33,460 nucleotides of DNA from positions 1 to 33,460 of the forward strand of contig CANRCE010000009.1 in assembly GCA_947629035.1 (NCBI GenBank). The letters are read 5' to 3'. Shown piece after piece: positions 2,791-18,793 of the stretch. The notes beneath the pieces were generated by a model, which was not told the origin of the DNA, ran no database searches, and saw nothing but the letters and a program-made list of their open reading frames with translations. The translations under genes were made by a program, and so were the position numbers. Position 1 is the first letter of the stretch; each line of letters opens with the position of its first letter. Origin of the DNA: an uncultured Bacilli bacterium. Lineage in GTDB: Bacteria; Bacillota_I; Bacilli_A; RF39; UBA660.

Positions 2791-2815
2791 AAAAAATAAG
2801 AGATAATCTCTTATT
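2791..2815 (-). terminator. Terminator of the four-gene TasA/CalY-like operon
   Basis: A 9-bp stem (AATAAGAGA at 2795-2803 with TCTCTTATT at 2807-2815) is followed on the - strand by a run of T. It overlaps the stop codon of the gene ending at 2814 and sits back to back with the + strand terminator. Confidence 0.85.
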
Positions 2816-3395
2816 AATATTTTACTTGTACACCTTCTACTCTTAACGAAGCATTAATTCTATTTCCTTGTTCATAATCTTGATTAGTACCATCATCTTG
2901 TAACCATAAAAGCAATGTATAATTTTGAGTTGCTCCTGATGCTAAATATTTATTAGTTAAAAGCACTATATTACCAGTAGAACCAATACCACCTAATGCT
3001 ACTCTATCGTTATTAGTATCATATATGGCATATTTAATTGCATCAGCCCTAAACTCATTAGTTTTTATATCAAGATATATCGTTATACTTTGATCCAGAC
3101 TACCAAGTGCCTTAACACTAAAATTATTTCGATAAACATATTTAGTTTCTTCAAAAGTAGGCTCTTCTCTAGGCACTAGTAATGGACTAACAACTTGACC
3201 ATCAATAAAGTCAATAGCCAAATCTCCAACTTTAACCTGTGTAGCATCTTCTTTTTCACTTGACATTAAACTATAATAAGCCCTAGTCGCTCCAATTACT
3301 GTTATAATACAAAGTAAAAGTAGCAATATAATAAATATAATAATCCATAATATTTTCTTATTTTTATTTTCTGACTTAACATTATTATCTTTCAT
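2814..3395 (-). CDS. SipW-signal TasA/CalY-like secreted protein (divergent, Cys-less)
   Basis: A 193-residue protein with a basic, Asn/Lys-rich N-terminus and one membrane segment (about 15-37) ending in VIGATRAYYS, the pattern of SipW-type signal peptides. The rest is a predicted beta-sandwich with the family landmarks LLVPREE, an alternating beta run, and LLLWLQDDGTNQDYEQGN near the C-terminus. It lacks the cysteine pair found in the other family members of this window and is the most diverged. It is the last gene of a four-gene operon: the ATG has an AGGAG site, the upstream gene ends 12 nt away, and a terminator covers its stop. Family membership rests on motifs and context. A role as a minor fibre subunit is inference. 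Confidence 0.65.
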   Translation of the reverse strand: MKDNNVKSENKNKKILWIIIFIILLLLLCIITVIGATRAYYSLMSSEKEDATQVKVGDLAIDFIDGQVVSPLLVPREEPTFEETKYVYRNNFSVKALGSLDQSITIYLDIKTNEFRADAIKYAIYDTNNDRVALGGIGSTGNIVLLTNKYLASGATQNYTLLLWLQDDGTNQDYEQGNRINASLRVEGVQVKY

Positions 3396-3406
3396 ATCTC
3401 TATCTC

Positions 3407-4042
3407 CTACCTACTTATATTTTCAATTGAAACACTAGCTGAAAAACTTGCACCTTGTTCTTTATTATTGTCATTACCTGCTTCATTTAACCAAATAAGC
3501 ACTTCGTAATCTTTTGTAGTTTTTCTATTTATATTTTGTGTAGTATTTATATCTTCCCCAAAAAGACTAGTTTTAGCTCCAACTGTTTCTGAAAACAAAC
3601 TTGTATTTTTTATTACTTTAGCATCATTATCAGTTACATCATAAACAATATAACTTAAATTAGAAAAAGCACTTCCACCTTGTCCTTTTTCGTTTTTATC
3701 CACTGTTAGAGTTGATTTAATATTGGCATCATAATCACCATTATTAGTTATACTAAATCTATAAACGCCACAAATTGTATAACCGTTATCATCTTTACAT
3801 TGATCAGCAGTTTTATCATAACCTGCCTTAGCAATAGACTCTTTAACAGGAATTAAATTAGCAACACTAATATTCATTCCATCGACATAATCAATTTCCA
3901 CAATAGCTGCCCTAGCATCAATATCTCTTTTACTACTAGCAGTTGCAGTAAAATAAGCAACTGTTGCACCAATAAGAGCAATAATTAAAGTAAATACACA
4001 AATAAGTGCATAAAATAAATTTTTACCAGTATTTGTTTGCAT
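3407..4042 (-). CDS. SipW-signal TasA/CalY-like secreted protein
   Basis: A 211-residue protein starting MQTNTGKNLFYALI with a membrane segment at about 9-30 ending in LIGATVAYFTA, a SipW-type signal. The family landmarks are LIPVKE, the cysteine loop CKDDNGYTIC followed by GVYRFSITNNGDYD, and the C-terminal VLIWLNEAGNDNNKEQG. The GKNLFYALI start resembles the GKGLFYGVI start of the array genes to the right, which links this operon to that array. An AGGAGG site precedes the ATG by 7 nt. It is third in the operon, 40 nt after the previous gene. Likely exported and folded as a beta-sandwich; exact function unknown. Confidence 0.7.
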   Translation of the reverse strand: MQTNTGKNLFYALICVFTLIIALIGATVAYFTATASSKRDIDARAAIVEIDYVDGMNISVANLIPVKESIAKAGYDKTADQCKDDNGYTICGVYRFSITNNGDYDANIKSTLTVDKNEKGQGGSAFSNLSYIVYDVTDNDAKVIKNTSLFSETVGAKTSLFGEDINTTQNINRKTTKDYEVLIWLNEAGNDNNKEQGASFSASVSIENISR

Positions 4043-4082
4043 TCTAAATCCTCCTTCATTTTACTAAATCAATTTATTACTT

Positions 4083-4712
4083 TTAAGGAGTAATAAATGA
4101 TGAAGAAATCTTTGGACCATTAATTGATTCAAATACTAATCTTCCCGTAAATACTTTTCCTTGATCCTCTTTTTGATCACTTTGCGTATTAGTTAGCCAT
4201 ATAACTAAATAATACTTACTACTACCTTTTGCTAGACTAATATTAGCGCTGGAAGAACCTTTTTGAAATGTATTTTTTGAATTAGAATCATTATTAATTG
4301 AGCTAGCATCAGAAACCTTTTCCTTAGAATCATTAAGTAATTGATACTTTAAATTAGAAGTAGTATATGTACTATTTACAGTTTCTAAATAACCTGTCAA
4401 TAACTCTAAATCACCATTATTTGTTAAAGTTACTTCATATAAAGAACAAATATCATATCCCTCTTTACTTACACATTTACCTTCAGCATCAGCAACAGCC
4501 CTTTCAATAGTATCGTCATCTACAGGAACTAATGCTGAACTAGTCTTAATTGCCTTGACACTTACTGATACATCGAAATTATAAGCACTTCCACCAATAG
4601 TATTATTATTTTGAACTTGTGCTAAGAAATATGAAACAGTAACTCCCGTTACAACAGCAATTAAACATAAAACTGCAATAATACTAAATAATATACTTTT
4701 TCTTTTATTCAT
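4083..4712 (-). CDS. SipW-signal TasA/CalY-like secreted protein
   Basis: A 209-residue protein with a membrane segment at about 7-28 ending in VTGVTVSYFLA, slightly off the GATxAYF pattern of its neighbours. It shows LVPVDDD, the cysteine loop CVSKEGYDIC followed by SLYEVTLTNNGDLE, and YLVIWLTNTQSDQKEDQG near the end. The middle is Ser/Asn-rich (SSINNDSNSKN). It is second in the operon; the AGGAG site lies in the 12-nt gap after the first gene. The conserved TNNGD following the cysteine loop argues for a common fold with the other members. Confidence 0.7.
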   Translation of the reverse strand: MNKRKSILFSIIAVLCLIAVVTGVTVSYFLAQVQNNNTIGGSAYNFDVSVSVKAIKTSSALVPVDDDTIERAVADAEGKCVSKEGYDICSLYEVTLTNNGDLELLTGYLETVNSTYTTSNLKYQLLNDSKEKVSDASSINNDSNSKNTFQKGSSSANISLAKGSSKYYLVIWLTNTQSDQKEDQGKVFTGRLVFESINGPKISSSFITP

Positions 4713-4724
4713 AATATCTAACTC

Positions 4725-5318
4725 CTATTCTACACCTGCTATACTACCTGTAAGATGTGAACCTGATGCAGATGTATATGTAACACTTGCTAAAAATGAT
4801 CCATTCATATCTTCAGGTTGATCCTTCCCTGTATCAGGTAACCAAATAAGCAACACAAATTTTTTAGAAGTCGAAGCATTAAGTGTAAAATTATCACCTA
4901 AACTTTGAGAACTATCACTAATAACCTTTATCTTATCAGTATAAGCCTCACCTTTATCATCTAAAACTAAATATTTTAAATTCTCCATATTATCTAACTT
5001 AAAATTTATTATACCAACTAAATCCTGAGTTTCACCTGTATTATTTATCGAAATATTATAAGCTTGACAAGCGCCATTATTATTAATATCCATACATTCA
5101 CTTTTATAAGCATTTAGTATATCTTCATCCTTTATAGGTAGTAAAGCATTTTCAGTATATAAAGGTTCAACTAATAAATCAAAACCCACACTAGCAGCAC
5201 TTACATTTATACCCTTTTCACTCTTCGTTATTGATGTAAAATAAGATATTGTTGCACCTATCATCATAATTATTAATGTCAAAACCCACACCATAGGAAT
5301 TATCATATTTTTTTTCAT
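4725..5318 (-). CDS. SipW-signal TasA/CalY-like secreted protein, first gene of operon
   Basis: A 197-residue protein. I place the start at the ATG at 5318 (MKKNMIIPM) because AAGGGAG lies 9 nt upstream. The in-frame ATG at 5339 would put that ribosome site inside the coding region. The membrane segment ends in MIGATISYFTS. Landmarks are LLPIKDED, the cysteine loop CMDINNNGAC followed by QAYNISINNTGE, and VLLIWLPDTGKDQPEDMNG. It leads the four-gene operon from a promoter at 5355-5383 whose spacer is not repetitive, so unlike the array to its right this operon has no visible phase switch. Confidence 0.7.
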   Translation of the reverse strand: MKKNMIIPMVWVLTLIIMMIGATISYFTSITKSEKGINVSAASVGFDLLVEPLYTENALLPIKDEDILNAYKSECMDINNNGACQAYNISINNTGETQDLVGIINFKLDNMENLKYLVLDDKGEAYTDKIKVISDSSQSLGDNFTLNASTSKKFVLLIWLPDTGKDQPEDMNGSFLASVTYTSASGSHLTGSIAGVE

Positions 5319-5354
5319 TTTCTTATGCTCCCTTACCATTTCTACTCTATGTAT

Positions 5355-5511: not shown

Positions 5512-5535
5512 AAAAAAAGCATATTGTCTATGCTT
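5512..5535 (-). terminator. Terminator of cassette 1
   Basis: A 7-bp stem (AAGCATA at 5517-5523 with TATGCTT at 5529-5535) is followed on the - strand by seven T. It includes the stop codon of the A1 gene. Confidence 0.8.
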
Positions 5536-6250
5536 ATTCTTGAGTAAAATCTGCTGTTACTTGACCTGTTCCTGCAGCATTTAATGTTACTGTTCCAGTG
5601 TATTGTCCTTTTTCACCTTCCACTTGACTTGTTTGATCAGATTCTTCATTTGCATAATATATCATTACGTAATAAGTTTTTTTATTACTACTATTATCAA
5701 GTGCTCCACGATATATCTCTGTACCTAAACCTGAAATTGAGTTAAAAGTATCATTTTCTTCGACAGTACTAGCAGTTAAAGTGTCTACCTTTCCATTTTC
5801 TGGTGTTTCACTGCCAGTAAATACAACAAAACTATATTTACTTTGACTAGCAAGTTCATCACCTGTTACTTTTAAATCCAAATGAATATTTGCAGCTTCC
5901 AAATACTGACTTGAGCTAGCCGTTATTTTCCATACATGGCATCCAGTAAAGCCACCATCAATGCATTTTTTAGTTAATGCTGCATTAACTTGATCTGTAT
6001 TAAGCTCTTCTAGAGTTTTAAAATCAGCTGGTACTAGTTTATCACTGGCAACTGTTTCAGCATCTGTATTCCATTGTACTTTGGTCACTGTAAGGCTTAA
6101 ATCTGACTTCAAAGTGTTATTAGCTTCACCTTGTATATCACTTGCTGTTTTACTTGCATTAAAATATGCAAAGGTTGCACCTATTATTGCAACAATAAGT
6201 GTAGCTACACCTATTACTCCGTAAAATAGTCCTTTACCATTGTTCTCCAT
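5534..6250 (-). CDS. Cassette 1 A-type TasA/CalY-like protein (A1)
   Basis: A 238-residue protein. Residues 8-30 are the SipW-type signal segment (GLFYGVIGVATLIV, ending IIGATFAYF), with cleavage expected after FNAS. LVPADF at 72-77 precedes the cysteine pair C96-C104 in CIDGGFTGCHVWKI. The C-terminus has YYVMIYYANEESDQ and YTGTVTLNAAGTGQVTADF. It is the second gene of its cassette, 40 nt after B1 with an AGGAGG site. Its closest relative in the array is A4: both share SSQYLEAANI and LDNSSNKKTYYVMIYY. Function is inferred from the TasA/camelysin family, whose members form extracellular matrix fibres. Confidence 0.75.
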   Translation of the reverse strand: MENNGKGLFYGVIGVATLIVAIIGATFAYFNASKTASDIQGEANNTLKSDLSLTVTKVQWNTDAETVASDKLVPADFKTLEELNTDQVNAALTKKCIDGGFTGCHVWKITASSSQYLEAANIHLDLKVTGDELASQSKYSFVVFTGSETPENGKVDTLTASTVEENDTFNSISGLGTEIYRGALDNSSNKKTYYVMIYYANEESDQTSQVEGEKGQYTGTVTLNAAGTGQVTADFTQE

Positions 6251-6290: not shown

Positions 6291-7028
6291 TTAATCACCA
6301 GATACAAAAGTTGCTTTTACTTGACCAGTACTTGTTGCAGAAAATGTTACAGTTCCAGTGTATTTTCCTTCTTCACCTTCTACAGAAGCAGTTTGATCTT
6401 CACTTTCATCATTTGCTAAATATACTAAAAGATAATATACAATAGCTTTATCTTTTGTTACGGTACGGTCTTGATGAATATTTGTTCCTAGTCCACTAAT
6501 AGAATTAAAAGTATTCTTTTCTGTAACTTCTGTAGCACTTAAACTAGTTACTCCTGTGTCTTTATCATATGAAGATTCATCATCTGCAGTTTTAAATATA
6601 GCATAACTCCATTTAGTATTTTCTGTTAAATTCTTATTATTTACTTTTAAGTCTAAATAAATACTTGCAGTTGTTAAATCTTGCGTTGATTTAGCTTCTA
6701 TTCTCCATACATGACATCCAGTAAAGCCACCAGAAATACATTTTTTAGTTAATGCTTTATTAACTTCTTCAGTGCCAATTTGAGTTGATTCTTTTCCAAA
6801 CTTCGCTGGTACTAGTTTATCACTAACATTAGAATCTGTATCTGTCCATTTTACTTTAGACACGCTTATAGTTAAACCTGATGCTAAATCTGTATTTGCT
6901 GCTCCTTGAATAGTAGTATCGGTTTTACTTGCACTAAAATATGCAAAAGTTGCACCTATTATTGCTACAATTAATGTAGCTACACCTATTACTCCATAGA
7001 ATATTCCCTTTCCGTTATTTTCGTCCAT
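6291..7028 (-). CDS. Cassette 1 B-type TasA/CalY-like protein (B1)
   Basis: A 245-residue B-type member beginning MDENNGKGIFYG; the other B genes begin MNEN. The signal segment at 9-31 ends in FAYFSAS. LVPAKFG starts at 72 and C97-C105 form the loop CISGGFTGCHVWRI. VYYLLVYLANDESEDQ and YTGTVTFSATSTGQVKATF close the protein. It is the first gene of the cassette, expressed from the AT-spacer promoter at 7064-7092 with an AGGAGG site. It matches B4 most closely (WTDTDSNVSDKLVPAKF, SISGLGTNIHQD). With A1 it may form a two-subunit system; that pairing is inferred only from the repeated gene order. Confidence 0.75.
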   Translation of the reverse strand: MDENNGKGIFYGVIGVATLIVAIIGATFAYFSASKTDTTIQGAANTDLASGLTISVSKVKWTDTDSNVSDKLVPAKFGKESTQIGTEEVNKALTKKCISGGFTGCHVWRIEAKSTQDLTTASIYLDLKVNNKNLTENTKWSYAIFKTADDESSYDKDTGVTSLSATEVTEKNTFNSISGLGTNIHQDRTVTKDKAIVYYLLVYLANDESEDQTASVEGEEGKYTGTVTFSATSTGQVKATFVSGD

Positions 7029-7063: not shown

Positions 7064-7092
7064 ATTATATATATATATATATATATTGTCAA
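7064..7092 (-). promoter_or_regulatory. Cassette 1 promoter with (AT)10 spacer, 17 bp
   Basis: On the - strand TTGACA (7087-7092) and TATAAT (7064-7069) are both perfect. The 17-bp spacer 7070-7086 is pure alternating A/T, and the whole AT tract (7067-7086) is 10 repeats. 17 bp is the optimal sigma-A spacing, so this copy is predicted ON. A second TATAAT at 7051-7056 is too far from the -35 to pair with it. Confidence 0.85.
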
Positions 7093-7171
7093 GACTTTTT
7101 TTGCTTTTTGGACAAAATTTGACTATTTTAAACTTCAATAAAATGTCATTACATATTTTTGTATTAGACAT

Positions 7172-7197
7172 AAAAAAAGCATATAAAATTTATGCTT
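7172..7197 (-). terminator. Terminator of cassette 2
   Basis: AAGCATA at 7177-7183 pairs with TATGCTT at 7191-7197 and is followed on the - strand by a T run. It includes the A2 stop codon. Confidence 0.75.
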
Positions 7198-7915
7198 ATT
7201 CTTGAGTAAAATCTGCCGTTACTTGACCTGCTCCTGCAGCATTTAATGTTACTGTTCCAGTATAATTGCCTTTTCCTTCTGTAACTTCACTATTTTGATC
7301 TTGTTCTTCGTTTTTATAATATATCATCACGTAATAAGTTTTTCCAGTGCTATTAAGTGCTCCAGTATATATTTGTGAACCTAAACCTGAAATTGTATTA
7401 AAAGTACCCTTATCGCTAACTACTGTAGCAGTTAATGATGTTATTTCAGTCTCTTCACCATTTGGAGTTTCACTACCAGTAAATACAACATAACTATATT
7501 TACTATCTTCAGTCGCTTCTTGTCCATTTACTTTCAAATTCAAATTAATATTTGCAGCCGTTAAATCTTGATTTGAACTTGCTTCTATTTTCCATACATG
7601 GCATCCAGTAAATCCACCATCAATACATTTTTTACCTAATGCTGCATTAACTTCTGTTTCAGTAAGAGCATTTGCCTCTTTCTCAAAATCAGCTGGTACG
7701 AGATTTTCACTAGCAACTGTTTCTCCTGCTAAATTCCATTTTACTTTTGATACCTTAAGAGTTAAATCTGACTGTAAAGTATTATTAGCCTGCCCAGTAA
7801 TATTGCTTGCTTCTTTACTGGCGTTAAAGTATGCAAAGGTTGCGCCAATTATTGCTACGATTAATGTAGCTACTCCAATCACTCCATAAAATAGTCCTTT
7901 ACCATTATCTTCCAT
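7196..7915 (-). CDS. Cassette 2 A-type TasA/CalY-like protein (A2)
   Basis: A 239-residue A-type paralogue starting MEDNGKGLFYG, the only copy with D at position 3. The signal segment at 8-30 ends in FAYFNAS. LVPADF begins at 72 and C97-C105 form CIDGGFTGC. The stretch after LVPADF (EKEANALTETEVNAALGKK) is nearly the same as in A3, while the exposed segments around 150-200 (VSDKGTFNTISGLGSQI) differ. This is a mosaic pattern. The C-terminus has YYVMIYYKNEEQDQNSEV. It lies 40 nt after B2 with an AGGAGG site. Confidence 0.75.
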   Translation of the reverse strand: MEDNGKGLFYGVIGVATLIVAIIGATFAYFNASKEASNITGQANNTLQSDLTLKVSKVKWNLAGETVASENLVPADFEKEANALTETEVNAALGKKCIDGGFTGCHVWKIEASSNQDLTAANINLNLKVNGQEATEDSKYSYVVFTGSETPNGEETEITSLTATVVSDKGTFNTISGLGSQIYTGALNSTGKTYYVMIYYKNEEQDQNSEVTEGKGNYTGTVTLNAAGAGQVTADFTQE

Positions 7916-7955
7916 TTTTTATTGTCCTCCTTTTTTATTATATTAAACATTTACT

Positions 7956-8699
7956 CTATCCAGCAGATGCAAAACTTGCTTTAACTTGACCAGTACTTGT
8001 TGCTGAAAATGTTACAGTTCCAGTGTATTTTCCTTTTTCTTCTTTTACAGATTCAGTTTGATCTTCATTTTCATCATTTGCTAAATATACTAAAAGATAG
8101 TATACAACTGGTGTGTTTGCTGATATAGTAGTACTATCATGAATATCTGTACCAAGATTATCTATAGAATTAAAAGTATCCTTTTCTGTAACTTGGCTAG
8201 CTGTTAAGCTATCTACTCCTGTATCTGCACTATATGAAGGTTCACCATCTGTAGTTTTGAATATAGCATAACTCCATTTAGTGTCTTCTTCTGCCACATT
8301 CGTACCATTTACTTTTAAATCTAAATAAATACTTGCAGATGTTAAATCTTGCGTTGATTTAGCTTCTATTCTCCATACATGACATCCAGTAAAGCCACCA
8401 GAAATACATTGTTTGCCTAATGCTTTATTAACTTCAGCAACATCAATTTCCGTTGAGCTTTTTCCAAAATTTGCTGGTACTAGATTTTCATTAACAGTTT
8501 CATCTGCATTTTTCCATTTTACTTTAGATACACTAATTTCTAATCCTGAAGCCAAATCTGTATTTGTTTCTCCTTTAATAGTAGTCTTATCTTCTTGACT
8601 TGCACTAAAATATGCAAAGGTTGCGCCGATTATTGCTACGATTAATGTAGCCACACCTATTACTCCATAGAATATTCCCTTTCCATTATTCTCATTCAT
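7956..8699 (-). CDS. Cassette 2 B-type TasA/CalY-like protein (B2)
   Basis: A 247-residue B-type paralogue, the longest of the five. The signal segment ends in FAYFSAS. NENLVPANF precedes the loop CISGGFTGCHVWRI. VVYYLLVYLANDENEDQ and the TFSATSTGQVKASF end are intact. It resembles B5 most in the region after the signal (ASQED, TIKGE, NENLVPA), which suggests block exchange between cassettes 2 and 5. It is the first gene behind the promoter with the longest AT spacer (21 bp), so it and A2 are predicted to be weakly expressed or off in the sequenced state. Confidence 0.75.
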   Translation of the reverse strand: MNENNGKGIFYGVIGVATLIVAIIGATFAYFSASQEDKTTIKGETNTDLASGLEISVSKVKWKNADETVNENLVPANFGKSSTEIDVAEVNKALGKQCISGGFTGCHVWRIEAKSTQDLTSASIYLDLKVNGTNVAEEDTKWSYAIFKTTDGEPSYSADTGVDSLTASQVTEKDTFNSIDNLGTDIHDSTTISANTPVVYYLLVYLANDENEDQTESVKEEKGKYTGTVTFSATSTGQVKASFASAG

Positions 8700-8732
8700 T
8701 TTTTCGTATCCTCCTCTCTACTATATAATTCT

Positions 8733-8765
8733 ATTATATATATATATATATATATATATTGTCAA
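8733..8765 (-). promoter_or_regulatory. Cassette 2 promoter with (AT)12 spacer, 21 bp
   Basis: Perfect TTGACA (8760-8765) and TATAAT (8733-8738) on the - strand are separated by 8739-8759, which is 21 bp; the AT tract 8736-8759 is 12 repeats. This is 4 bp over the optimum, so RNA polymerase contact with both hexamers should be poor. A weaker TATATA inside the tract could partly substitute. Confidence 0.85.
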
Positions 8766-8842
8766 GGTTTTTTTGCTCTTTGAACAAAATTTTACCATTT
8801 TAAATTTCAATAAATATCATTGCATAATTTTATATTAAATAT

Positions 8843-8866
8843 AAAAAAAGCATATTTTCTATGCTT
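8843..8866 (-). terminator. Terminator of cassette 3
   Basis: AAGCATA at 8848-8854 pairs with TATGCTT at 8860-8866, with a T run on the - strand. It includes the A3 stop codon. Confidence 0.75.
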
Positions 8867-9587
8867 AATCTTGAGTAAAATCTGCTGTTACTTGACCTGT
8901 TCCTGCTACACTTAATGTTACTGTTCCAGTGTATTTTCCTTCGCCATTTTCTACTTCACTATTTTGATCAGTTTCTTCATTTTCGTAATATATCATTACG
9001 TAATAAACAGTATCGCTAGAAGTAAGTGCTCCTCCACTATGTATATCTGCAGCTGTACCACCAATTGAATTAAAAGTATCACCATCTTTAACAGTTGTTG
9101 CAGTTAATGATGTTACTTTTTTCTCTGTTCCATTTTCCTCTGTGCCAGTAAATACTACATATCTATACTTACTTTCATCAGAAGCTGGATTTCCATTTAC
9201 TTTTAAATCTAAATAAATACTTGCAGCTTCCAAATTTTGTTGTGAACTAGCTGTTATCTTCCATACATGACATCCAGTAAATCCACCATCAATACATTTT
9301 TTTCCTAATGCTGCGTTAACTTCTGTTTCAGTAAGATCATTTGCTTCTTTCTTAAAATCAGCTGGTACTAATTTATCACTAGCAACAGTAGCATCATTCT
9401 CAAATTCTATCTTAGATACTTCAAGCTTTAAACCTTTTGCTAAATCAGTATTCGTCTGTCCTGTAATTGTACCAGTATTGGTTTGACTAGCATTAAAGTA
9501 TGCAAAGGTTGCCCCGATTATTGCTACGATTAATGTTGCTACACCTATTACTCCATAAAATAGGCCCTTTCCATTATTCTCATTCAT
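8865..9587 (-). CDS. Cassette 3 A-type TasA/CalY-like protein with B-like N-terminus (A3)
   Basis: A 240-residue paralogue. It starts MNENNGKG as B genes do, but continues GLFYGVIG and FAYFNAS as A genes do. The mature part is A-type (LVPADF, CIDGGFTGCHVWKI, YYVMIYYENEETDQ, VTADFTQD). After the signal it has NTDLAKGLKLEVSKIEF, a B-like NTDLA motif where A proteins have NNTL. The end reads TVTLSVAGTGQV, shared only with B3. It is therefore a chimera. It also lies 120 nt from B3 rather than 40 and has its own extended -10 promoter, so it is probably expressed independently of the AT-spacer switch. Confidence 0.75.
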   Translation of the reverse strand: MNENNGKGLFYGVIGVATLIVAIIGATFAYFNASQTNTGTITGQTNTDLAKGLKLEVSKIEFENDATVASDKLVPADFKKEANDLTETEVNAALGKKCIDGGFTGCHVWKITASSQQNLEAASIYLDLKVNGNPASDESKYRYVVFTGTEENGTEKKVTSLTATTVKDGDTFNSIGGTAADIHSGGALTSSDTVYYVMIYYENEETDQNSEVENGEGKYTGTVTLSVAGTGQVTADFTQD

Positions 9588-9613
9588 TTCTTGTATCCTC
9601 CTTTACAATAGAA

Positions 9614-9622
9614 ATTATATCA
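9614..9622 (-). promoter_or_regulatory. Separate extended -10 promoter for A3
   Basis: TGATATAAT on the - strand (TATAAT at 9614-9619 with TG one base upstream) lies in the unusually long 9588-9707 gap, 26 nt before the A3 ATG. The position 17 bp upstream is not a good -35. No AT repeat is present. Confidence 0.55.
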
Positions 9623-9707
9623 AAATTTTTTAGATAATTAGATAAAATAATATTTATCAACCAAATCTCTTTCTTTAATATATTTTATTTATCATATTAG
9701 TTTTCTA

Positions 9708-10445
9708 TTAATTAGCAACAAAGCTTGCTTTTACTTGACCTGTTCCTGCAACACTTAATGTTACTGTTCCAGTGTAGTGTCCATCTTCGCCTGTTACAGA
9801 AGCAGTTTGATCTTGACCTTCATCATTTGCTAAATATACTAAAAGATAATATACAATTGGTGTTTCTTTTGTCATAGTAGCACCACTATGAATGTCTGTA
9901 CCAAGATTACTTATAGAGTTAAAAGTATCCTGCTCTGTAACCTGGGTAGCTGTTAAATTATCCACTTCAGTATCTGCAGAATATGGAGCTTCATCACCAT
10001 TAGTTTTAAATATAGCATAACTCCATTTAGTGTCTTCATCTACTACTTTGGCACTATTTACTTTTAAATCTAAATAAATACTTGCAGTTGTTAAATCTTG
10101 TTTTGAACTAGCTTCTATTCTCCATACATGACATCCAGTAAATCCACCAGAAATACATTTATTACTTAATGCATTATTAACGTCAGTCGCATCAAGACTT
10201 CCTACTTCATTTTTAAATTTAGCTGGTACTAATTTATCACTACCAGCAGTAGCACCTTGCCATTTTACCTTAGATACACTAATACTTAATCCTGATGCTA
10301 AATCTGTATTCGTTTCTCCTTGAATCGTATCATCATTAGTTTGACTTGCACTAAAATATGCAAAAGTTGCACCAATGATAGCTACGATTAATGTAGCTAC
10401 ACCTATTACTCCATAGAATATTCCCTTTCCATTATTTTCGTTCAT
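9708..10445 (-). CDS. Cassette 3 B-type TasA/CalY-like protein (B3)
   Basis: A 245-residue B-type paralogue. The signal segment ends in FAYFSASQT. LVPAKF, CISGGFTGCHVWRI and VYYLLVYLANDEGQDQ are conserved. The last 20 residues read TLSVAGTGQVKASF instead of the TFSATSTGQVKA of other B genes and match the neighbouring A3 gene, a sign of local gene conversion. ALSNKC before the cysteine loop is shared with B4. It is transcribed from the (AT)10 promoter at 10481-10509. No clear terminator separates it from A3. Confidence 0.75.
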   Translation of the reverse strand: MNENNGKGIFYGVIGVATLIVAIIGATFAYFSASQTNDDTIQGETNTDLASGLSISVSKVKWQGATAGSDKLVPAKFKNEVGSLDATDVNNALSNKCISGGFTGCHVWRIEASSKQDLTTASIYLDLKVNSAKVVDEDTKWSYAIFKTNGDEAPYSADTEVDNLTATQVTEQDTFNSISNLGTDIHSGATMTKETPIVYYLLVYLANDEGQDQTASVTGEDGHYTGTVTLSVAGTGQVKASFVAN

Positions 10446-10480
10446 CTTTTTTCGTATCCTCCTCTCTACTATATAATTCT

Positions 10481-10509
10481 ATTATATATATATATATATA
10501 TATTGTCAA
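10481..10509 (-). promoter_or_regulatory. Cassette 3 promoter with (AT)10 spacer, 17 bp
   Basis: On the - strand TTGACA (10504-10509) and TATAAT (10481-10486) enclose 10487-10503, 17 bp of alternating A/T (10 repeats in 10484-10503). Predicted ON. Confidence 0.85.
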
Positions 10510-10563
10510 GGTTTTTTTGCTCTTTGAATGAAATTTTACCATTCTAAACTTCAATAAAATATC

Positions 10564-10600
10564 ATTAAAAAAATTGAAGATTATTATTTAAAATCCTCAA
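10564..10600 (-). terminator. Second hairpin downstream of cassette 4
   Basis: An imperfect 10-bp stem (AAATTGAAGA at 10571-10580 with the complementary TCCTCAATTT near 10594-10603, one mismatch) is followed on the - strand by a T run. It is absent from the other inter-cassette gaps and lies beyond the main terminator, so it may be a back-up. Confidence 0.5.
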
Positions 10601-10614
10601 TTTCACTAGATAAG

Positions 10615-10637
10615 AAAAAAGCATATTATTTATGCTT
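10615..10637 (-). terminator. Terminator of cassette 4
   Basis: AAGCATA at 10619-10625 pairs with TATGCTT at 10631-10637, with a T run on the - strand. It includes the A4 stop codon. Confidence 0.75.
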
Positions 10638-11355
10638 AATCTTGAGTAAAATCTGCTGTTACTTGACCTGTCCCTGCAGCATTTAATGTTACTGTTCCAG
10701 TGTACTGTCCCTTTGTACCTTGTACTTGACTTGTTTGATCATCATTTTCATTTTCATAATATATCATTACGTAATAAGTTTTTTTATTACTACTATTATC
10801 AAGGGGTCCACTGTATATCTGTACACCTGAACCCACAATTGAGTTAAAAGTATCAGTATCTTCGACACTACTAGCAGTTAAGTTTTCTACTCCTTCTGAT
10901 CCAGTTTCACTACCAGTAAATACAACAAAACTATATTTACTTTCACTAGCAAGTGCGTCACCTGTTACTTTTAAATTCAAATTAATATTTGCAGCTTCTA
11001 AATACTGACTTGAGCTAGCTATTATCTTCCATACATGACATCCAGTAAATCCACCATCAATACATTTTTTTCCTAATGCTGCATTAACTTCAGCTTCAGT
11101 AAGTGAAGTTGCATCTTTTTGAAAATCTGCTGGTACTAATTTATCGCTAGCAACTGTTTGACCGTCTAATTTCCAATTTACTTTGGAAACTTCAAGGTTT
11201 AAATCTGACTGTAAAGTATTATTAGCTTCACCTTTAATAGTTTCAGCATCCTTTTGACTTGCATTAAAGTAAGCAAAAGTTGCGCCAATTATTGCTACAA
11301 TTAATGTTGCTACACCTATTACTCCATAAAATAGTCCTTTACCATTGTTCTCCAT
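10636..11355 (-). CDS. Cassette 4 A-type TasA/CalY-like protein (A4)
   Basis: A 239-residue A-type paralogue. The signal segment at 8-30 ends in FAYFNASQKD. LVPADFQ, CIDGGFTGCHVWKI, YYVMIYYENENDDQ and VTADFTQD are all present. The segments SSQYLEAANI and LDNSSNKKTYYVMIYY make it the closest relative of A1 even though four genes of the array lie between them. VGSGVQIYSGP replaces the SGLGTEIYRGA of A1, so divergence is concentrated in the presumed loop before the last strands. It lies 39 nt after B4. Confidence 0.75.
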   Translation of the reverse strand: MENNGKGLFYGVIGVATLIVAIIGATFAYFNASQKDAETIKGEANNTLQSDLNLEVSKVNWKLDGQTVASDKLVPADFQKDATSLTEAEVNAALGKKCIDGGFTGCHVWKIIASSSQYLEAANINLNLKVTGDALASESKYSFVVFTGSETGSEGVENLTASSVEDTDTFNSIVGSGVQIYSGPLDNSSNKKTYYVMIYYENENDDQTSQVQGTKGQYTGTVTLNAAGTGQVTADFTQD

Positions 11356-11394
11356 TTTTTATTGTCCTCCTTTTTTACTATATCAATTTTTTCT

Positions 11395-12132
11395 CTAAGC
11401 ACCAGCTACAAAAGTTGCTTTAACTTGACCAGTACTTGTTGCAGAAAATGTTACTGTTCCAGTGTATTTTCCTTCTTCGCCTGCTACAGAAGTAGTTTGA
11501 TCTTGACCTTCATCATTTGCTAAATATACTAAAAGATAATATACAATAGCTTGATTTTTTGTTACGGTACCGTCTTGATGAATATTTGTTCCTAGTCCAC
11601 TAATAGAATTAAAAGTCTCTTTATCTGTAACACTACTAGCAGTTAAAGTTGCTACTCCTGTTTCTGCATTATATGAAGGTTCACCATCTGCAGTTTTAAA
11701 TATAGCATAACTCCATTTAGTTTCATCTTCCACATTTTGACCATTTACTTTTAAGTCTAAATAAATACTTGCAGATGTTAAATCTTGCGTTGATTTAGCT
11801 TCTATTCTCCATACATGGCATCCAGTAAATCCACCAGAAACGCATTTATTACTTAATGCATTATTAACATCACTTTCATCAAGTTCCGTTGCACTATGTG
11901 AAAATTTTGCCGGTACTAGTTTATCACTAACATTAGAATCTGTATCTGTCCATTTTACTTTAGACACGCTTATAGTTAAACCTGATGCTAAATCAGTATT
12001 TGTTTCGCCTGTAATGCTACTATCGGTTTTACTTGCACTAAAATATGCAAAGGTTGCCCCAATAATAGCTACAATTAATGTTGCTACACCTATTACTCCA
12101 TAGAATATTCCCTTTCCGTTATTTTCGTTCAT
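11395..12132 (-). CDS. Cassette 4 B-type TasA/CalY-like protein (B4)
   Basis: A 245-residue B-type paralogue. It matches B1 over WTDTDSNVSDKLVPAKF and again over SISGLGTNIHQDGTVTK, but shares ALSNKC and ANDEGQDQT with B3, so it is a mosaic. The loop reads CVSGGFTGC, the only copy with V after the first cysteine. The end is TFSATSTGQVKATFVAGA. It is the first gene behind the 17-bp (AT)10 promoter at 12168-12196, with an AGGAGG ribosome site. Confidence 0.75.
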   Translation of the reverse strand: MNENNGKGIFYGVIGVATLIVAIIGATFAYFSASKTDSSITGETNTDLASGLTISVSKVKWTDTDSNVSDKLVPAKFSHSATELDESDVNNALSNKCVSGGFTGCHVWRIEAKSTQDLTSASIYLDLKVNGQNVEDETKWSYAIFKTADGEPSYNAETGVATLTASSVTDKETFNSISGLGTNIHQDGTVTKNQAIVYYLLVYLANDEGQDQTTSVAGEEGKYTGTVTFSATSTGQVKATFVAGA

Positions 12133-12167
12133 TATTTTTCGTATCCTCCTCTCTACTATATAATTCT

Positions 12168-12196
12168 ATTATATATATATATATATATATTGTCAA
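12168..12196 (-). promoter_or_regulatory. Cassette 4 promoter with (AT)10 spacer, 17 bp
   Basis: On the - strand TTGACA (12191-12196) and TATAAT (12168-12173) enclose 12174-12190, 17 bp of alternating A/T (10 repeats in 12171-12190). Predicted ON. Confidence 0.85.
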
Positions 12197-12275
12197 GGCT
12201 TTTTTTGCTCTTTGAACAAAATTTTACCATTCTAAACTTCAATAAAATACCATTACATAATTTTGTATTAAACAT

Positions 12276-12299
12276 AAAAAAAGCATATTGACTATGCTT
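12276..12299 (-). terminator. Terminator of cassette 5
   Basis: AAGCATA at 12281-12287 pairs with TATGCTT at 12293-12299, with a T run on the - strand. It includes the A5 stop codon. Confidence 0.75.
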
Positions 12300-13014
12300 A
12301 ATCTTGAGTAAAATCTGCTGTTACTTGACCTGTTCCTGCAGCATTTAATGTTACTGTCCCAGTGTATTTTCCCTTATCGGATTCTACTTGACTTGTCTGA
12401 TCTAATTCTTCGTTTGCATAATATATCATTACGTAATAAGTTACTCCACTGCTATCAAGATTTCCGTTATGTATCTGTGCACCTAAAGTAGCGATTGAGT
12501 TAAAAGTACCTTTATCTTTAATTTCATTAGCTGATAAAGATGTAACTTTTTCTCCTGAATCTGGACTTTCAGTACCAGTAAATACAGCGAAACTATATTT
12601 ACTGTCTTCAGCAAGTTCGCTACCTGTTACTTTTAAGTTCAAGTTAATATTTGCTGCTTCTAAATATTGAGTTGAGCTAGCTTTTATTTTCCATACATGA
12701 CATCCAGTAAATCCACCATCAATGCATTTTTTAGTTAATGCTGCATTAACTTCTGTTGCAGTAAGATCTGCTCCTTCATTTTGAAAATCTGCTGGCACTA
12801 AATTATCGCTGGCAACTGTTTCATTTGCTAAATCCCATTGTACTTTGGACACTTCAAGTTTTAAATCCGACTTTAAAGTGTTATTAGCCTGACCTTGGAT
12901 ACCTTCAGCTGTTTTGCTTGCATTAAAATATGCAAAGGTTGCACCTATTATTGCTACGATTAATGTTGCTACTCCAATCACTCCATAGAATAGTCCTTTA
13001 CCATTATTTTCCAT
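12298..13014 (-). CDS. Cassette 5 A-type TasA/CalY-like protein (A5)
   Basis: A 238-residue A-type paralogue. The signal segment ends in FAYFNASKTAEG. LVPADFQNEG precedes ALTKKCIDGGFTGC. SSTQYLEAANI resembles A1 and A4, whereas the stretch KGTFNSIATLGAQIHNGNL is its own. The end is VTADFTQD. It lies 39 nt after B5. The - strand gap with its AAGGAGG site is nearly identical to that between B4 and A4. Confidence 0.75.
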   Translation of the reverse strand: MENNGKGLFYGVIGVATLIVAIIGATFAYFNASKTAEGIQGQANNTLKSDLKLEVSKVQWDLANETVASDNLVPADFQNEGADLTATEVNAALTKKCIDGGFTGCHVWKIKASSTQYLEAANINLNLKVTGSELAEDSKYSFAVFTGTESPDSGEKVTSLSANEIKDKGTFNSIATLGAQIHNGNLDSSGVTYYVMIYYANEELDQTSQVESDKGKYTGTVTLNAAGTGQVTADFTQD

Positions 13015-13053
13015 TTTTTATTGTCCTCCTTTTTTACTATATCAATTTTTTCT

Positions 13054-13794
13054 CTAAGCACCAGCTACAAAAGTTGCTTTTACTTGACCAGTACCTGATG
13101 CAAAAAATGTTACTGTTCCAGTGTATTTTCCTTTTTCATCTTTTACAGATTCAGTTTGATCCGTGCTTTCATCATTTGCTAAATATACTAAAAGATAATA
13201 TACAATTTTTTCATCTTTTGTTACGGTACCACTATCATGAATATTTGTTCCTAGTCCAGTAATAGAATTAAAAGTATCTTTTTCTGTAACTTGGCTAGCT
13301 ATTAAGTTTTCTACTCCTGTTTCTGCATTATATGAAGTTTCATCACTATCAGTTGTAAATATAGCATAACTCCATTTAGTTTCATCTTCCACATTTTCAC
13401 CATTTACTTTTAAGTCTAAATAAATACTTGCAGCTGTTAAATCCTGTGCTGACTCAGCCTCTATTCTCCATACATGACATCCAGTAAAGCCACCAGAAAT
13501 GCATTTTTTGGTTAATGCTTTATTAACTTCTTCAGTATCAATTGATTTTGAATCTTTTCCGAACTTTGCTGGTACTAGATTTTCATTAATTTTTTCTTCT
13601 ACACCTTGCCATTTTACTTTAGATACACTAATACTTAATCCTGATGCTAAATCAGTATTTGCTTCTCCTTTAATAGTACTATTATCTTCTTGACTTGCAC
13701 TAAAATATGCAAAAGTTGCACCTATTATAGCAACAATAAGTGTAGCTACACCTATTACTCCATAGAATATTCCCTTTCCATTATTTTCGTTCAT
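13054..13794 (-). CDS. Cassette 5 B-type TasA/CalY-like protein (B5)
   Basis: A 246-residue B-type paralogue and the first array gene in transcription order. The signal segment ends in FAYFSASQED. NENLVPAKFG, CISGGFTGCHVWRI and VYYLLVYLANDESTDQ are conserved; the end is TFFASGTGQVKATFVAGA, with FFASG in place of FSATS. It is driven by the promoter with the shortest AT spacer (15 bp). Long alternative frames on the opposite strand here are shadows of its coding bias. Confidence 0.75.
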   Translation of the reverse strand: MNENNGKGIFYGVIGVATLIVAIIGATFAYFSASQEDNSTIKGEANTDLASGLSISVSKVKWQGVEEKINENLVPAKFGKDSKSIDTEEVNKALTKKCISGGFTGCHVWRIEAESAQDLTAASIYLDLKVNGENVEDETKWSYAIFTTDSDETSYNAETGVENLIASQVTEKDTFNSITGLGTNIHDSGTVTKDEKIVYYLLVYLANDESTDQTESVKDEKGKYTGTVTFFASGTGQVKATFVAGA

Positions 13795-13829
13795 TATTTT
13801 TCGTATCCTCCTCTCTATTGTATAATTTT

Positions 13830-13856
13830 ATTATATATATATATATATATTGTCAA
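13830..13856 (-). promoter_or_regulatory. Cassette 5 promoter with (AT)9 spacer, 15 bp
   Basis: On the - strand TTGACA (13851-13856) and TATAAT (13830-13835) enclose 13836-13850, 15 bp of alternating A/T (9 repeats in 13833-13850). It is one repeat below the 17-bp optimum, so predicted weak or off. Upstream of the -35 the sequence departs from the other four promoters. Confidence 0.85.
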
Positions 13857-13943: not shown

Positions 13944-15374
13944 TTATATTTTTTTCTTTTTCTTAATAATTATTAAAGCAATAATTCCTACTAAAACAAG
14001 AGAAAGAATAACGATTGGTAAAATTAAACTATTAGATTTTTCTATATTAATGATATATTCCCTAGATATTCCATCTTCAGCTGTTACTATTACTTTAACT
14101 TGACTTCCATTTGCTAAATTATTATTACCTTCGATTACAACTTTTGCATTCTTATCTTCAGTTACATAACTAATATCTAATCTATCTATCTTTTTAATTT
14201 TTAATGTATATTCCAATTTATTTTTATTAAAATCTAAATTATAATCTTTAACAGATAAACTCTTTAAATAATTATTATGAGATAAATCTTTACCAGCTTC
14301 TAATCTTGTAACAGTTAATTTATAAGTTCTAACTTTACCATCTTCAGATGTTACAATTATATTTATAACATTTGATCCTACTTTTAAAGAAGTATCCCCC
14401 TCTATCTTAACTGTAGCTTTAGAATCTTTAGCCTTATAATCAATTTTAACTTCATCAACATCATTTTCTACATTTAATTTATAATCATTAACATCATCTT
14501 TAAGCGTTAACTCAGTACCATTTACACTTAAACTAGACAATGTATTATTGCTACTCTTACTAGGAGTATTTGTAGTTGTATTATTGTTAGTACTAGGTTT
14601 AGTTGTATTATTATTGTTGTTATTATTACCAGTATCAGGTTTCTTTTCTGGTTCAGGTTTCTTTTCTGGTTCAGGTCGCGTTATATTTATTGTATAAATT
14701 TTCTTAGTTCCAGCTTCACTAGTAACTATTACAGTAAAAGTATTTTTACCATAATTTAATGTCTTAGTACCAGTACCACTTACAGTTGCTTTTGAATCAG
14801 TAGGTTTTGCTCCTATATTAGTACTTGAAACATTAGTACTTACTTGCAAATCATAAGTAGTTTTACTAGAATTAAAACTCAAATTAGTATTAGTTGCTGA
14901 TAAACTAGATAAAGTATCAATTGAAGATGCAATTCTTAAAGTTATTCTTTTAGTATCTATATCATTAGATTCAAAATTTTCATCATTAAGTTGAATATTA
15001 GAAGCAATTAACTCTACATCTGCTCCAGTTGTAATACTTGATGATGCTGTAACACTAAAAGTAGCTATGTTAAAAGTTCCTGACTTGTTATCAGCAGTAT
15101 ATACATCAATATTTCCTGAAGCTGTATCTCCATTTTCCCAATTACTTGTTTTACTAAAATTACTTAACGTTAAACCATATCCCCCACTAACTTCAACATG
15201 CACTGAAGAAACACTACCTCCACTAGCACTTCCACTTAAAGTACATGTCGTACTTGCTCCTGGTGCTAATTTAGTATTATTACAAGATATGTTTACACTA
15301 CCTGTTAAAGCACTTACCTTAAATGGTATTATCATAAATAATACACTAATAAATATTATTACTACTTTTTTCAT
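13944..15374 (-). CDS. Membrane-anchored cohesin-like and cadherin-like beta-sandwich protein
   Basis: A 476-residue surface protein. Residues 1-22 are a signal peptide ending FKVSA. Residues 25-148 look like a cohesin domain: a Gly/Ser-rich beta-sandwich with LAPGAS near the start, LTLSNFSKTSNWENG in the middle, SGTFNIATFSVTA, and a closing IQLND. Three cadherin-like beta-sandwich repeats (about 155-234, 279-358 and 369-445) each end in TSEAG/TSEDG/TAEDG plus YxxxI/VxR-type strands. A Pro/Glu and Asn/Thr linker (235-277) separates the first two. Residues 450-470 are a C-terminal membrane helix followed by KKKKKI, so the protein is membrane-anchored and faces outward. It starts 3 nt after the LRR-dockerin gene, which suggests they work as a pair. 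The cohesin call is by motif and context. Confidence 0.7.
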   Translation of the reverse strand: MKKVVIIFISVLFMIIPFKVSALTGSVNISCNNTKLAPGASTTCTLSGSASGGSVSSVHVEVSGGYGLTLSNFSKTSNWENGDTASGNIDVYTADNKSGTFNIATFSVTASSSITTGADVELIASNIQLNDENFESNDIDTKRITLRIASSIDTLSSLSATNTNLSFNSSKTTYDLQVSTNVSSTNIGAKPTDSKATVSGTGTKTLNYGKNTFTVIVTSEAGTKKIYTINITRPEPEKKPEPEKKPDTGNNNNNNNTTKPSTNNNTTTNTPSKSSNNTLSSLSVNGTELTLKDDVNDYKLNVENDVDEVKIDYKAKDSKATVKIEGDTSLKVGSNVINIIVTSEDGKVRTYKLTVTRLEAGKDLSHNNYLKSLSVKDYNLDFNKNKLEYTLKIKKIDRLDISYVTEDKNAKVVIEGNNNLANGSQVKVIVTAEDGISREYIINIEKSNSLILPIVILSLVLVGIIALIIIKKKKKI

Positions 15375-15377
15375 TTT

Positions 15378-18300
15378 TTACCCCTCCAAACTATCTATTT
15401 TACCACGATAATATTGAAACAATTTCGTAACATCATTTAAAGTTATATTTTTATTTTTATCAATAACTTTACCTGCTTTTATAAAATAATCTTCCATTTT
15501 TATTTTCTTTCTATAATATTGGAAATCTTTTGTAACATCATTTAAATCAATCTTTCCATCACCAGTTGTATCTCCCCTAACAATTAGTGTATACTCAATA
15601 GATTCTCCATCCTTAAATTTTATTTTAAGTACACATCCTGTTCCTATAATATTTGTACCTTTTCCTTTTCGATCAACTACTGTAATATCTCCAGTTGTAT
15701 CTATTTTTTCTTTCAATGCATCAACAGTAATATTAGTACCTAAATTTAAAATATATTTCTTGCCATCTTCCTCATTTGAACTTAAATCTAAATCATGAAA
15801 GTCAACATATTCTTCATCTATTTCATTTAAAATAGTATAAGTATGTAATACATTGTTATTATATTCTATCTTAACTTGCATATTTCTTGTAATATCTCCA
15901 CTTGTAACCAATTTTCCATCTTTATCATAAACACTAACTTTCAACTCATTATTACTAGGATTTATCTTAGTTATAAAATCTTGATATTCATATTTTTGAT
16001 TCTTTAAACTTATTATATGTGCTGTATGTTCTAAATCCTCATCAATTGTAAGTTTAAACAATTTATATTTTTTTACTACCTCTTGATTATATTTTATTTC
16101 TAATTCTGTATCAGTAGTATCTATCGTAACATTACTAGATTTTGTAATATTTCCCTCATGATAATTTTCAGTACCTAAATAAATATAATCTTTATTTAAA
16201 TCATACACTGTAGAATTATAAGTTATAATATCTAAAGAATCTATAACACTATTACCATACATAATCTTTAAAGTATCTTCTTCATAAATAACACTTGCTT
16301 TACTCACTACAGGGTAAACAGTTATATCTGACCTACTATAAGAATTAGTACCTAAATCATAATATTTTTGCGAAAAATCATATTTTGATGACTTATATGA
16401 AACAACATCCAATGTCTCTAAAGCTATTTTATTACTATTATCATTATAATAAATTACAATATTTCTACTATAACCAGTATTGTTATATGTTATATCATTA
16501 TTATTAGCATTAGTAATATCTATTTTCGTTTTATCAAAAGTACTATCTTTGCCAATATAAACATAACCATCACCAAATTTATAAGTATCACTAGAATAAG
16601 TAATTATTTTAATTTTATCTAAAGATATATCATTATATTTAATTTCTAAAGTATTATCTTCATCATTAACTACTAAATCATTAGTATCAACATTAGTTAC
16701 AGTAATATCTTTTTCCTTATCAAAAGTATGATATTTAGTAAAGATATATACAGATGCTGCTTTGTAATTAGTATTAGTAACATTATAAGTTACAATCTTA
16801 TAAGTAACTACTACTTTACCCTTATAAGTAATTGTCAATGTATTAGCATTACTATCATAATTTTTAACAGCTCCAGTTAAACCTTTTATCGAAATACTAT
16901 TTTCTTTAAATTCTTTATCTTTAGTATAAATATAACCAGTATTTCCTGTATTTCCAAATTTATAGCTATCACTATTAACTACAATTACAGCAATTGTTGT
17001 AATTAAATCATTAGTATCATCCAATTCAATTTTGATAACATTATTGTTATTATCGTAACTAAGGGTTGCATTACTAGCAGTAATACCCCCATCATAATTA
17101 TTATTTCCTAAGAAAATATAACCATCTCTTAGTGTTTCTTTATAATTTTCATTAGCTTCTTCAATATTAATGTGTACAAGCTTAAATACCTTTATGGCAT
17201 TACCATTCTCATCTTTAACAGTTAAAGTATTAGCATCAGAATTTACTTCAAAGGTTGCATTACTATCACTAGTTAATTCTAATTTAGACTCAATCGTATC
17301 TTTATCAATGTCAAACGCTGTATAAATATATCCTTTTTCATTATTAATGATATAACCAGTATTATCAGATTTAGTAGTAAGCTCAACTACTTTAAGATTA
17401 TCATATTTAATTTTAAATTTTGTACTAGTTGCTAAAGTACCCATATCACTAATATAAAGATTGTGATTATATATAGCATTAAAAGAATAAGTACCAGTTT
17501 TTGATACTGTAATTGTATTATTTTTTATTACTACATTTTTATCACCATTAATAGATGAATATGTAACTTTAATATCTTCTTGTTTTACATTTTTCAAAAA
17601 AGGCATTTTTATAGAATCAGAAATTTCTACATATTTTTCATTAGTTTCACTTTGTTTTTCACTAATTTCACTTGTTAAAATATTACTAATATCAAATGGC
17701 GTATCCTTATAAACCGTTATTGCTTTAGAAGAAACAAAATTATTACCATCTAATTTTAAAGCAATTAATTTTTTAAAATTACTAAGATCTATACTTGTTA
17801 ATTGGTTATTATCTATATATAATTTTTGTAATAATTTATTTTCGCTATGATTTATATTAAATTCACTAATTTTATTATTTGATAAATTTAGTGATGTTAA
17901 ATTAGTATTATTTTTTAAATCAATATTAGTTAAATTATTATTAGCAACTGATAAATTAATCAAAGACGTACTATCTGAAACATCAATTTTATCAAGATTA
18001 TTATCATTAAGATTTATATATAATAATCCTGTACAGCCATTAAGATTAACACTTGTTAATTTTTTATTGTTATATACTTCTAGTCGAGGCAAATTACTAA
18101 TACCACTAAAATCTAAACTAGTCAATTGAGGATTATTAGTTATATCTGGATATTGTAATCTAGCATAATTCTTATAATCAGCATCTTTACCAGCATATTT
18201 ACCATCTGTACCACCAACAAATTTAATACTTACTAAATCTGAATTATTTTTTATTCTTTCTGTAGTTAATTTTGTAAGATTACTTAAATCAAGTGATTTA

Positions 18301-18779
18301 GCATCACTATTCATTACTTCAATTACAATTAATTGAGGTAAATCAAGTACTACATCTTTATTAGAAAATGTAATATACTGAAAAGATAAATATTCAAGTT
18401 TTTTTAATTTATTTATATTTGTTATATCAATTGTCATATTACTTAAAATTAAATTCTTTAAATTAGTTAACTTATCAATACCAGTTAAATCAGTAATAGG
18501 ACTATCTTTACTTCCACATGTTAACTGAGTTATTTTATTAAGTTCACTATCATTCAAATCATCTTGTTCTGTCTTCTTTTCTACATCAGTTAATTTATTG
18601 TAACTATCAACAACACATTTATATAAATTAGCATCATTAAAGGGATTACCTTCTCTTAAAGTCAACCTATCATTATTAATATCTATACTACTCATTATTT
18701 GTATAGAATTATTTTCTCCAATGAACATTAAAATTGCTATTCCCAAAAATAGAAATAACATTATCATTCTTTTTTTCAT
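15378..18779 (-). CDS. Giant secreted leucine-rich-repeat protein with C-terminal dockerin-like module
   Basis: 1133 residues from the ATG at 18779, chosen because AAGGAG lies 9 nt upstream; the in-frame GTG at 18797 would contain that ribosome site. Residues 1-22 are a hydrophobic signal segment. About residues 70-345 are leucine-rich repeats of ~21-24 aa (LTSLNLSNNKISEF, LTSIDLSNFKKLIALKLDGN). About seven diverged ~70-aa beta modules follow, each with a YIYLG/YVYIG-type strand and an ITYNS-type strand. The C-terminal ~65 residues are dockerin-like: GDTTGDGKIDLNDVT fits the calcium loop, and a second copy DKNKNITLNDVT is two residues short. Each is followed by FQYYR. It likely binds a partner through the LRRs and docks onto the cohesin-like protein encoded 3 nt downstream. 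Ligand unknown. Confidence 0.8.
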   Translation of the reverse strand: MKKRMIMLFLFLGIAILMFIGENNSIQIMSSIDINNDRLTLREGNPFNDANLYKCVVDSYNKLTDVEKKTEQDDLNDSELNKITQLTCGSKDSPITDLTGIDKLTNLKNLILSNMTIDITNINKLKKLEYLSFQYITFSNKDVVLDLPQLIVIEVMNSDAKSLDLSNLTKLTTERIKNNSDLVSIKFVGGTDGKYAGKDADYKNYARLQYPDITNNPQLTSLDFSGISNLPRLEVYNNKKLTSVNLNGCTGLLYINLNDNNLDKIDVSDSTSLINLSVANNNLTNIDLKNNTNLTSLNLSNNKISEFNINHSENKLLQKLYIDNNQLTSIDLSNFKKLIALKLDGNNFVSSKAITVYKDTPFDISNILTSEISEKQSETNEKYVEISDSIKMPFLKNVKQEDIKVTYSSINGDKNVVIKNNTITVSKTGTYSFNAIYNHNLYISDMGTLATSTKFKIKYDNLKVVELTTKSDNTGYIINNEKGYIYTAFDIDKDTIESKLELTSDSNATFEVNSDANTLTVKDENGNAIKVFKLVHINIEEANENYKETLRDGYIFLGNNNYDGGITASNATLSYDNNNNVIKIELDDTNDLITTIAVIVVNSDSYKFGNTGNTGYIYTKDKEFKENSISIKGLTGAVKNYDSNANTLTITYKGKVVVTYKIVTYNVTNTNYKAASVYIFTKYHTFDKEKDITVTNVDTNDLVVNDEDNTLEIKYNDISLDKIKIITYSSDTYKFGDGYVYIGKDSTFDKTKIDITNANNNDITYNNTGYSRNIVIYYNDNSNKIALETLDVVSYKSSKYDFSQKYYDLGTNSYSRSDITVYPVVSKASVIYEEDTLKIMYGNSVIDSLDIITYNSTVYDLNKDYIYLGTENYHEGNITKSSNVTIDTTDTELEIKYNQEVVKKYKLFKLTIDEDLEHTAHIISLKNQKYEYQDFITKINPSNNELKVSVYDKDGKLVTSGDITRNMQVKIEYNNNVLHTYTILNEIDEEYVDFHDLDLSSNEEDGKKYILNLGTNITVDALKEKIDTTGDITVVDRKGKGTNIIGTGCVLKIKFKDGESIEYTLIVRGDTTGDGKIDLNDVTKDFQYYRKKIKMEDYFIKAGKVIDKNKNITLNDVTKLFQYYRGKIDSLEG

Positions 18780-18793
18780 ACTAACAAACTCCT

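Follow-up and report, generated by a model that had tools for sequence, protein, structure and literature searches.

Does an array of surface-protein genes in an uncultured bacterium vary its expression through repeats that sit inside its promoters? The question is raised by a 33,460-nt stretch of DNA (contig CANRCE010000009.1 of assembly GCA_947629035.1; hereafter the window, meaning this stretch at its full length) from a Bacilli bacterium of the RF39, UBA660 lineage. Between window positions 7064 and 13856 lie five minus-strand promoters in which perfect TTGACA and TATAAT hexamers are separated by nothing but alternating A and T. The locus is probably, at roughly three chances in four by our reckoning from sequence comparison, a five-unit array of surface-protein cassettes under promoter-spacer phase variation, as an original prediction made from the letters of the window had proposed.

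Rechecking the window reproduced exactly the hexamers, the coordinates and the spacers of 17, 21, 17, 17 and 15 bp that had been assigned to cassettes 1 to 5. The tracts comprise 10.5, 12.5, 10.5, 10.5 and 9.5 repeat copies, each at 100% purity (Tandem Repeats Finder, TRF). The window contains six matches to the pattern TTGACA-N13-23-TATAAT where 0.47 are expected, and none of 100 shuffled sequences reached six, so chance is ruled out; the sixth site is an ordinary promoter with an 18-bp spacer at 18820-18849. In the entire 1.25-Mb genome there is no AT tract of at least 14 bases (ATATATATATATAT) outside the five spacers. The array is built of tandem 1.7-kb cassettes that are 74-88% identical and have near-identical leaders, and downstream of every promoter come a short leader containing a GGAGG ribosome-binding site and then two genes. 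Between cassettes 2 and 3 the 28-nt leaders are identical and the 30 upstream bases differ at two positions (ungapped), yet the spacers measure 21 and 17 bp. The original prediction had also stressed that the spacers differ by whole repeats. That is true, but it is no separate evidence, since with fixed hexamers and pure AT between them no other kind of change is possible.

The lengths of 15, 17 and 21 bp straddle the spacing that this genome prefers. Among its 57 other perfect-hexamer sites, 26 have a 17-bp spacer and 37 have one of 16-18 bp, while 15 bp (1/57) and 21 bp (2/57) are at background level. The 17-bp optimum that had been assumed for the array thus agrees with the host genome's own spacings, and the same peak was found in two other genomes (G153 and G414). 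On contig C3 of the window's genome (L110 and L111), six near-identical promoters of the TTGACAAATTATATTATATATTATATAAT type are spread across a phage-like gene region; their spacers are AT-rich but interrupted, and all are exactly 17 bp. Given this genome-wide preference, and established promoter biology, cassettes 1, 3 and 4 are predicted to be ON, cassette 2 OFF or weak, and cassette 5 weak.

If each promoter is to act on its own cassette, the cassettes should be separate transcription units, and they probably are. At the end of the second gene in all five, direct folding gave an AAGCATA-loop-TATGCTT hairpin followed directly by six or seven T residues, probably an intrinsic terminator; it is because such a U-tailed hairpin ends every cassette that separate transcription seems probable. 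A generic terminator scan found nothing at the cassette ends, because the stem is AT-rich and has only two G-C pairs. The expected two-gene organization was borne out: the array holds ten genes of about 240 codons, belonging to two subfamilies that alternate.

The products are likely to be surface-exposed, judging from an architecture of a single N-terminal membrane helix followed by a beta-rich ectodomain (AlphaFold2, mean pLDDT 79). TIGR04088, the profile of the SipW-dependent signal, scored above its cut-off of 19 bits in the two second-gene proteins tested and fell 1-2 bits short in two first-gene proteins. A SipW-type signal joined to a beta-rich ectodomain recalls the SipW-dependent fibre proteins TasA and CalY. 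The cassette proteins differ from these, however, in matching no Pfam family and in giving Foldseek TM-scores of only about 0.3, so that membership in the TasA/CalY group is not established. With scores this low, no PDB fold was assigned to the ectodomain; a TasA fibre (8aur_A) was among the weak matches, at rank 18 with a query TM-score (TMq) of 0.29 and a root-mean-square deviation (rmsd) of 15.9.

The case for a switch draws much of its weight from other members of the family. In a survey of 386 family genomes, the pattern TTGANA-(TA)6+-TATAAT was present in 13, and the reversed-pattern control in none; a lone site was found in each of 2 of about 340 other members of the class. Viral contigs yielded neither the array leader nor the cassette gene family, and their one AT-tract promoter was imperfect and unrelated. 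In unrelated genera of the family the same (AT)n promoters precede non-homologous surface genes. By a simple rule of hydrophobicity and lipobox, 20 of 21 (AT)n-driven genes were surface-like, compared with 39 of 176 background open reading frames (Fisher p 4e-11), though these counts include paralogues that are not independent, which weakens the argument; counted per genus the figure is about 9 of 13 (p 7e-4).

Related promoters in these genomes differ in tract length. Four lipoprotein paralogues in G153 have spacers of 19, 11, 15 and 19 bp; between 19- and 11-bp copies the 40-nt leader does not differ at any base. Likewise, spacers of 13 and 15 bp stand before identical 40-nt leaders in G414; three dispersed membrane-anchored paralogues in G143 have 19, 17 and 15 bp, and three wall-anchor-type proteins in G007 have 19, 19 and 17 bp. 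Since tracts differ where leaders are identical, tract length, by this comparison of sequences, is evolving faster than its neighbouring sequence.

A second repeat occupies the same place. Runs of at least eight G between the hexamers were found in 63 of the 386 genomes, representing 44 of 150 genera, again with a control of zero. These promoters number up to 23 per genome, have spacers mostly of 15-23 bp, and lie mostly ahead of pilin-like, lipoprotein-like or membrane-anchored surface genes. Same-flank copies within genomes differ in length by one G, and orthologous promoters of two congeneric species have G10 and G9 in otherwise conserved flanks. Both repeat types coexist in G153. Numerous repeat-spacer promoters sit at the ends of contigs (for example G153:C88:6, G118:C45:1, G383:C19:16 and G131:C51:40), as though assembly stopped there, which could reflect repeated flanks or heterogeneous lengths in the population.

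Systems of this kind are known. In Mycoplasma hyorhinis, adjacent vlp surface lipoprotein genes each have a promoter with a poly-A repeat spacer, and expression is combinatorial; for this family see Rosengarten and Wise (1991), as cited in PMC11868660. The window resembles vlp in having several neighbouring surface genes with a repeat-spacer promoter apiece, and differs in its (AT)n tracts and its bicistronic units of SipW-signal-type proteins, where vlp has poly-A and repeat-rich lipoproteins. The original prediction had named only the Haemophilus influenzae hif pilus as its precedent. That analogy is right for the repeat type, but the multi-gene design is nearer to Vlp. The hifA/hifB promoter contains a (TA)9-11 repeat proposed to alter the -35/-10 spacing and surface-fibre expression (PMC2651432), and its copy number compares well with the 9.5-12.5 of the window; hif, however, is a single divergent promoter region in a proteobacterium, whereas in the window, from an uncultured lineage of the Bacilli class, each of five tandem paralogous cassettes has a separate promoter. 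The porA promoter of Neisseria meningitidis has a poly-G tract between -35 and -10, with expression graded by its length, and in meningococci poly-G switching rises about 1000-fold when mutS is lost (PMC3639595). Relatives of the window's genome also have poly-G spacers of this design; porA differs from the array in being a single Neisseria gene with a mononucleotide tract rather than AT.

On the phase-switch reading, slipped-strand copying would add or remove 2-bp units of an (AT)n tract, the -35 to -10 distance would shift around 17 bp, the optimum for the sigma factor, and only the affected cassette would be transcribed more or less. Five such promoters on diverged paralogues could give many surface combinations, perhaps to the benefit of a cell evading its host, phages or competitors. 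What we infer is that these tracts slip within populations, that their length affects expression, and that the cell benefits. The comparative support is strong, short of proof, and consists of the recurrence at surface genes, the length differences among paralogues, the poly-G class, the 17-bp preference and the terminator-like hairpins.

Several observations weigh against a switch. The tract-length comparisons are confined to differences between paralogues and between congeneric orthologues; the compared genomes are mostly metagenome assemblies, in which a consensus masks minority lengths. Homologues from other species that are closest to the window proteins (L006-L017) have no AT-tract promoters, so the feature does not follow this gene family, and the idea of an AT-tract promoter conserved with its proteins was rejected. 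Across several species of genus g45 the majority of (AT)n promoters are at 15 bp, which suggests either slow change or that 15 bp is a stable low or functional state, and cautions against simply calling 15 bp OFF. The poly-G spacers of several genomes centre at 18-20 bp; the optimum may therefore depend on spacer geometry, and 17 bp is not to be applied blindly. Finally, mismatch repair normally limits mono- and dinucleotide slippage, and the genome encodes MutS1. Absence of mismatch repair was thus ruled out as a cause of slippage, and, given the effect of mutS loss in the meningococcus, switching rates in the window's genome may be modest.

The persistence of 15 bp in several g45 species and the presence of MutS1 would also suit a fixed promoter architecture, in which an easily melted or supercoiling-sensitive AT spacer has spread with duplicated cassettes, its length drifting only on evolutionary time to give graded, inherited expression and no switch. 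We regard this as unlikely: poly-G, which is not easily melted, occupies the same position in 63 of the 386 relatives, promoters whose leaders are identical have tracts that differ by as much as 8 bp, and interrupted AT-rich spacers that should melt equally well remain at 17 bp. It is more doubtful still that recombination between cassettes, by gene conversion or copy-number change, is the main source of variation in the array, with the tracts secondary. Tandem 1.7-kb cassettes of this identity, with their near-identical leaders, speak in its favour, but recombination leaves the tract-length differences, the dispersed copies in G143 and G414 and the poly-G spacers unexplained. Recombination is compatible with phase switching and may act alongside it. 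As for neutral microsatellites, AT repeats readily arise in low-GC genomes, and slippage might place them between hexamers where differing lengths are tolerated with no regulatory effect. With no other AT tract of at least 14 bases in the genome, reversed-pattern controls of zero and strong enrichment of surface genes downstream, we give this explanation hardly any credence.

Beyond the array, we lean towards a general system of stochastic surface-protein switching in this family of uncultured, small-genome Bacilli, with (AT)n and poly-G spacers interchangeable and up to about 23 such promoters per genome. Homologous loci suggest Bacilli from gut and rumen, and the source bacterium is probably gut-dwelling. 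Until now promoter-spacer phase variation has been known from a handful of cultured pathogens, in most cases at one locus or a few. In this large uncultured family, which apparently inhabits animal guts, it would operate at multiple loci with two repeat chemistries that are interchangeable. While the kind of system is known from hif, porA and Vlp, its use throughout a family of uncultured Bacilli, at multiple loci and with two chemistries, appears to be undescribed: the literature covered, which is incomplete, contained no report of phase variation in RF39 or in comparable uncultured Bacilli. Because every tract is short enough for ordinary metagenome reads, existing data allow tests, without culture, of whether switching occurs, how fast it is and whether it is under selection.

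Table 1. Features of the five-cassette array, in window coordinates, and the poly-G promoters of a related genome.
Feature	Position	Strand	Remarks
Cassette 1 promoter	7064..7092	-	17-bp (AT)n spacer; predicted ON; 17 bp is the commonest genome spacing
Cassette 1 gene 1	6291..7028	-	Begins MDENNGKGIFYG; one N-terminal transmembrane (TM) helix and beta-rich ectodomain; AlphaFold2 mean pLDDT 79
Cassette 1 gene 2	5534..6250	-	Begins MENNGKGLFYG; SipW-type signal, TIGR04088 20.5 bits (cut-off 19)
Cassette 1 hairpin	5512..5535	-	AAGCATA-loop-TATGCTTTTTTT at stop codon; terminator-like, likely intrinsic terminator
Cassette 2 promoter	8733..8765	-	21-bp (AT)n spacer; predicted OFF or weak
Cassette 2 gene 1	7956..8699	-	
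Cassette 2 gene 2	7196..7915	-	
Cassette 2 hairpin	7172..7197	-	Terminator-like; same hairpin as cassette 1
Cassette 3 promoter	10481..10509	-	17-bp (AT)n spacer; predicted ON
Cassette 3 gene 1	9708..10445	-	
Cassette 3 gene 2	8865..9587	-	
Cassette 3 hairpin	8843..8866	-	Terminator-like; same hairpin as cassette 1
Cassette 4 promoter	12168..12196	-	17-bp (AT)n spacer; predicted ON
Cassette 4 gene 1	11395..12132	-	
Cassette 4 gene 2	10636..11355	-	
Cassette 4 hairpin	10615..10637	-	Terminator-like; same hairpin as cassette 1
Cassette 5 promoter	13830..13856	-	15-bp (AT)n spacer; predicted weak, yet 15 bp is commonest in genus g45
Cassette 5 gene 1	13054..13794	-	TIGR04088 17.6 bits, just below cut-off 19
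Cassette 5 gene 2	12298..13014	-	SipW-type signal, TIGR04088 22.4 bits (cut-off 19)
Cassette 5 hairpin	12276..12299	-	Terminator-like; same hairpin as cassette 1
G153 poly-G promoters	Contigs C4, C25, C35, C88, C113 (L162-L166)		Pilin-like and other surface genes downstream

Directly downstream of the array, at 2814-5339, are four more small proteins of the same N-terminal membrane-helix architecture that lack AT-tract promoters. Upstream, at 13944-18797, are a membrane protein with a cadherin-like domain (PF12733) and a 1139-residue leucine-rich-repeat protein, the latter behind the ordinary promoter at 18820-18849. Also near the array are a protein with collagen-like (GPTGPT) repeats, at 3-593, and then a response regulator and histidine kinase pair, at 810-2752.

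Most (AT)n leaders contain no Rfam element. The exception is in genus g45, where the (AT)n promoter is separated from the surface gene by a group II intron domain (RF00029; L061, L071/L108 and L143); this domain is apparently a short leader of intron origin, and related leaders are present at L145 and L153. One of these g45 loci, L108, encodes at 320-2506 a 728-residue surface protein behind an (AT)n promoter, with a strong match (PF12810, E 8e-46) to the ALK/LTK glycine-rich domain, which is best known from animal receptors.

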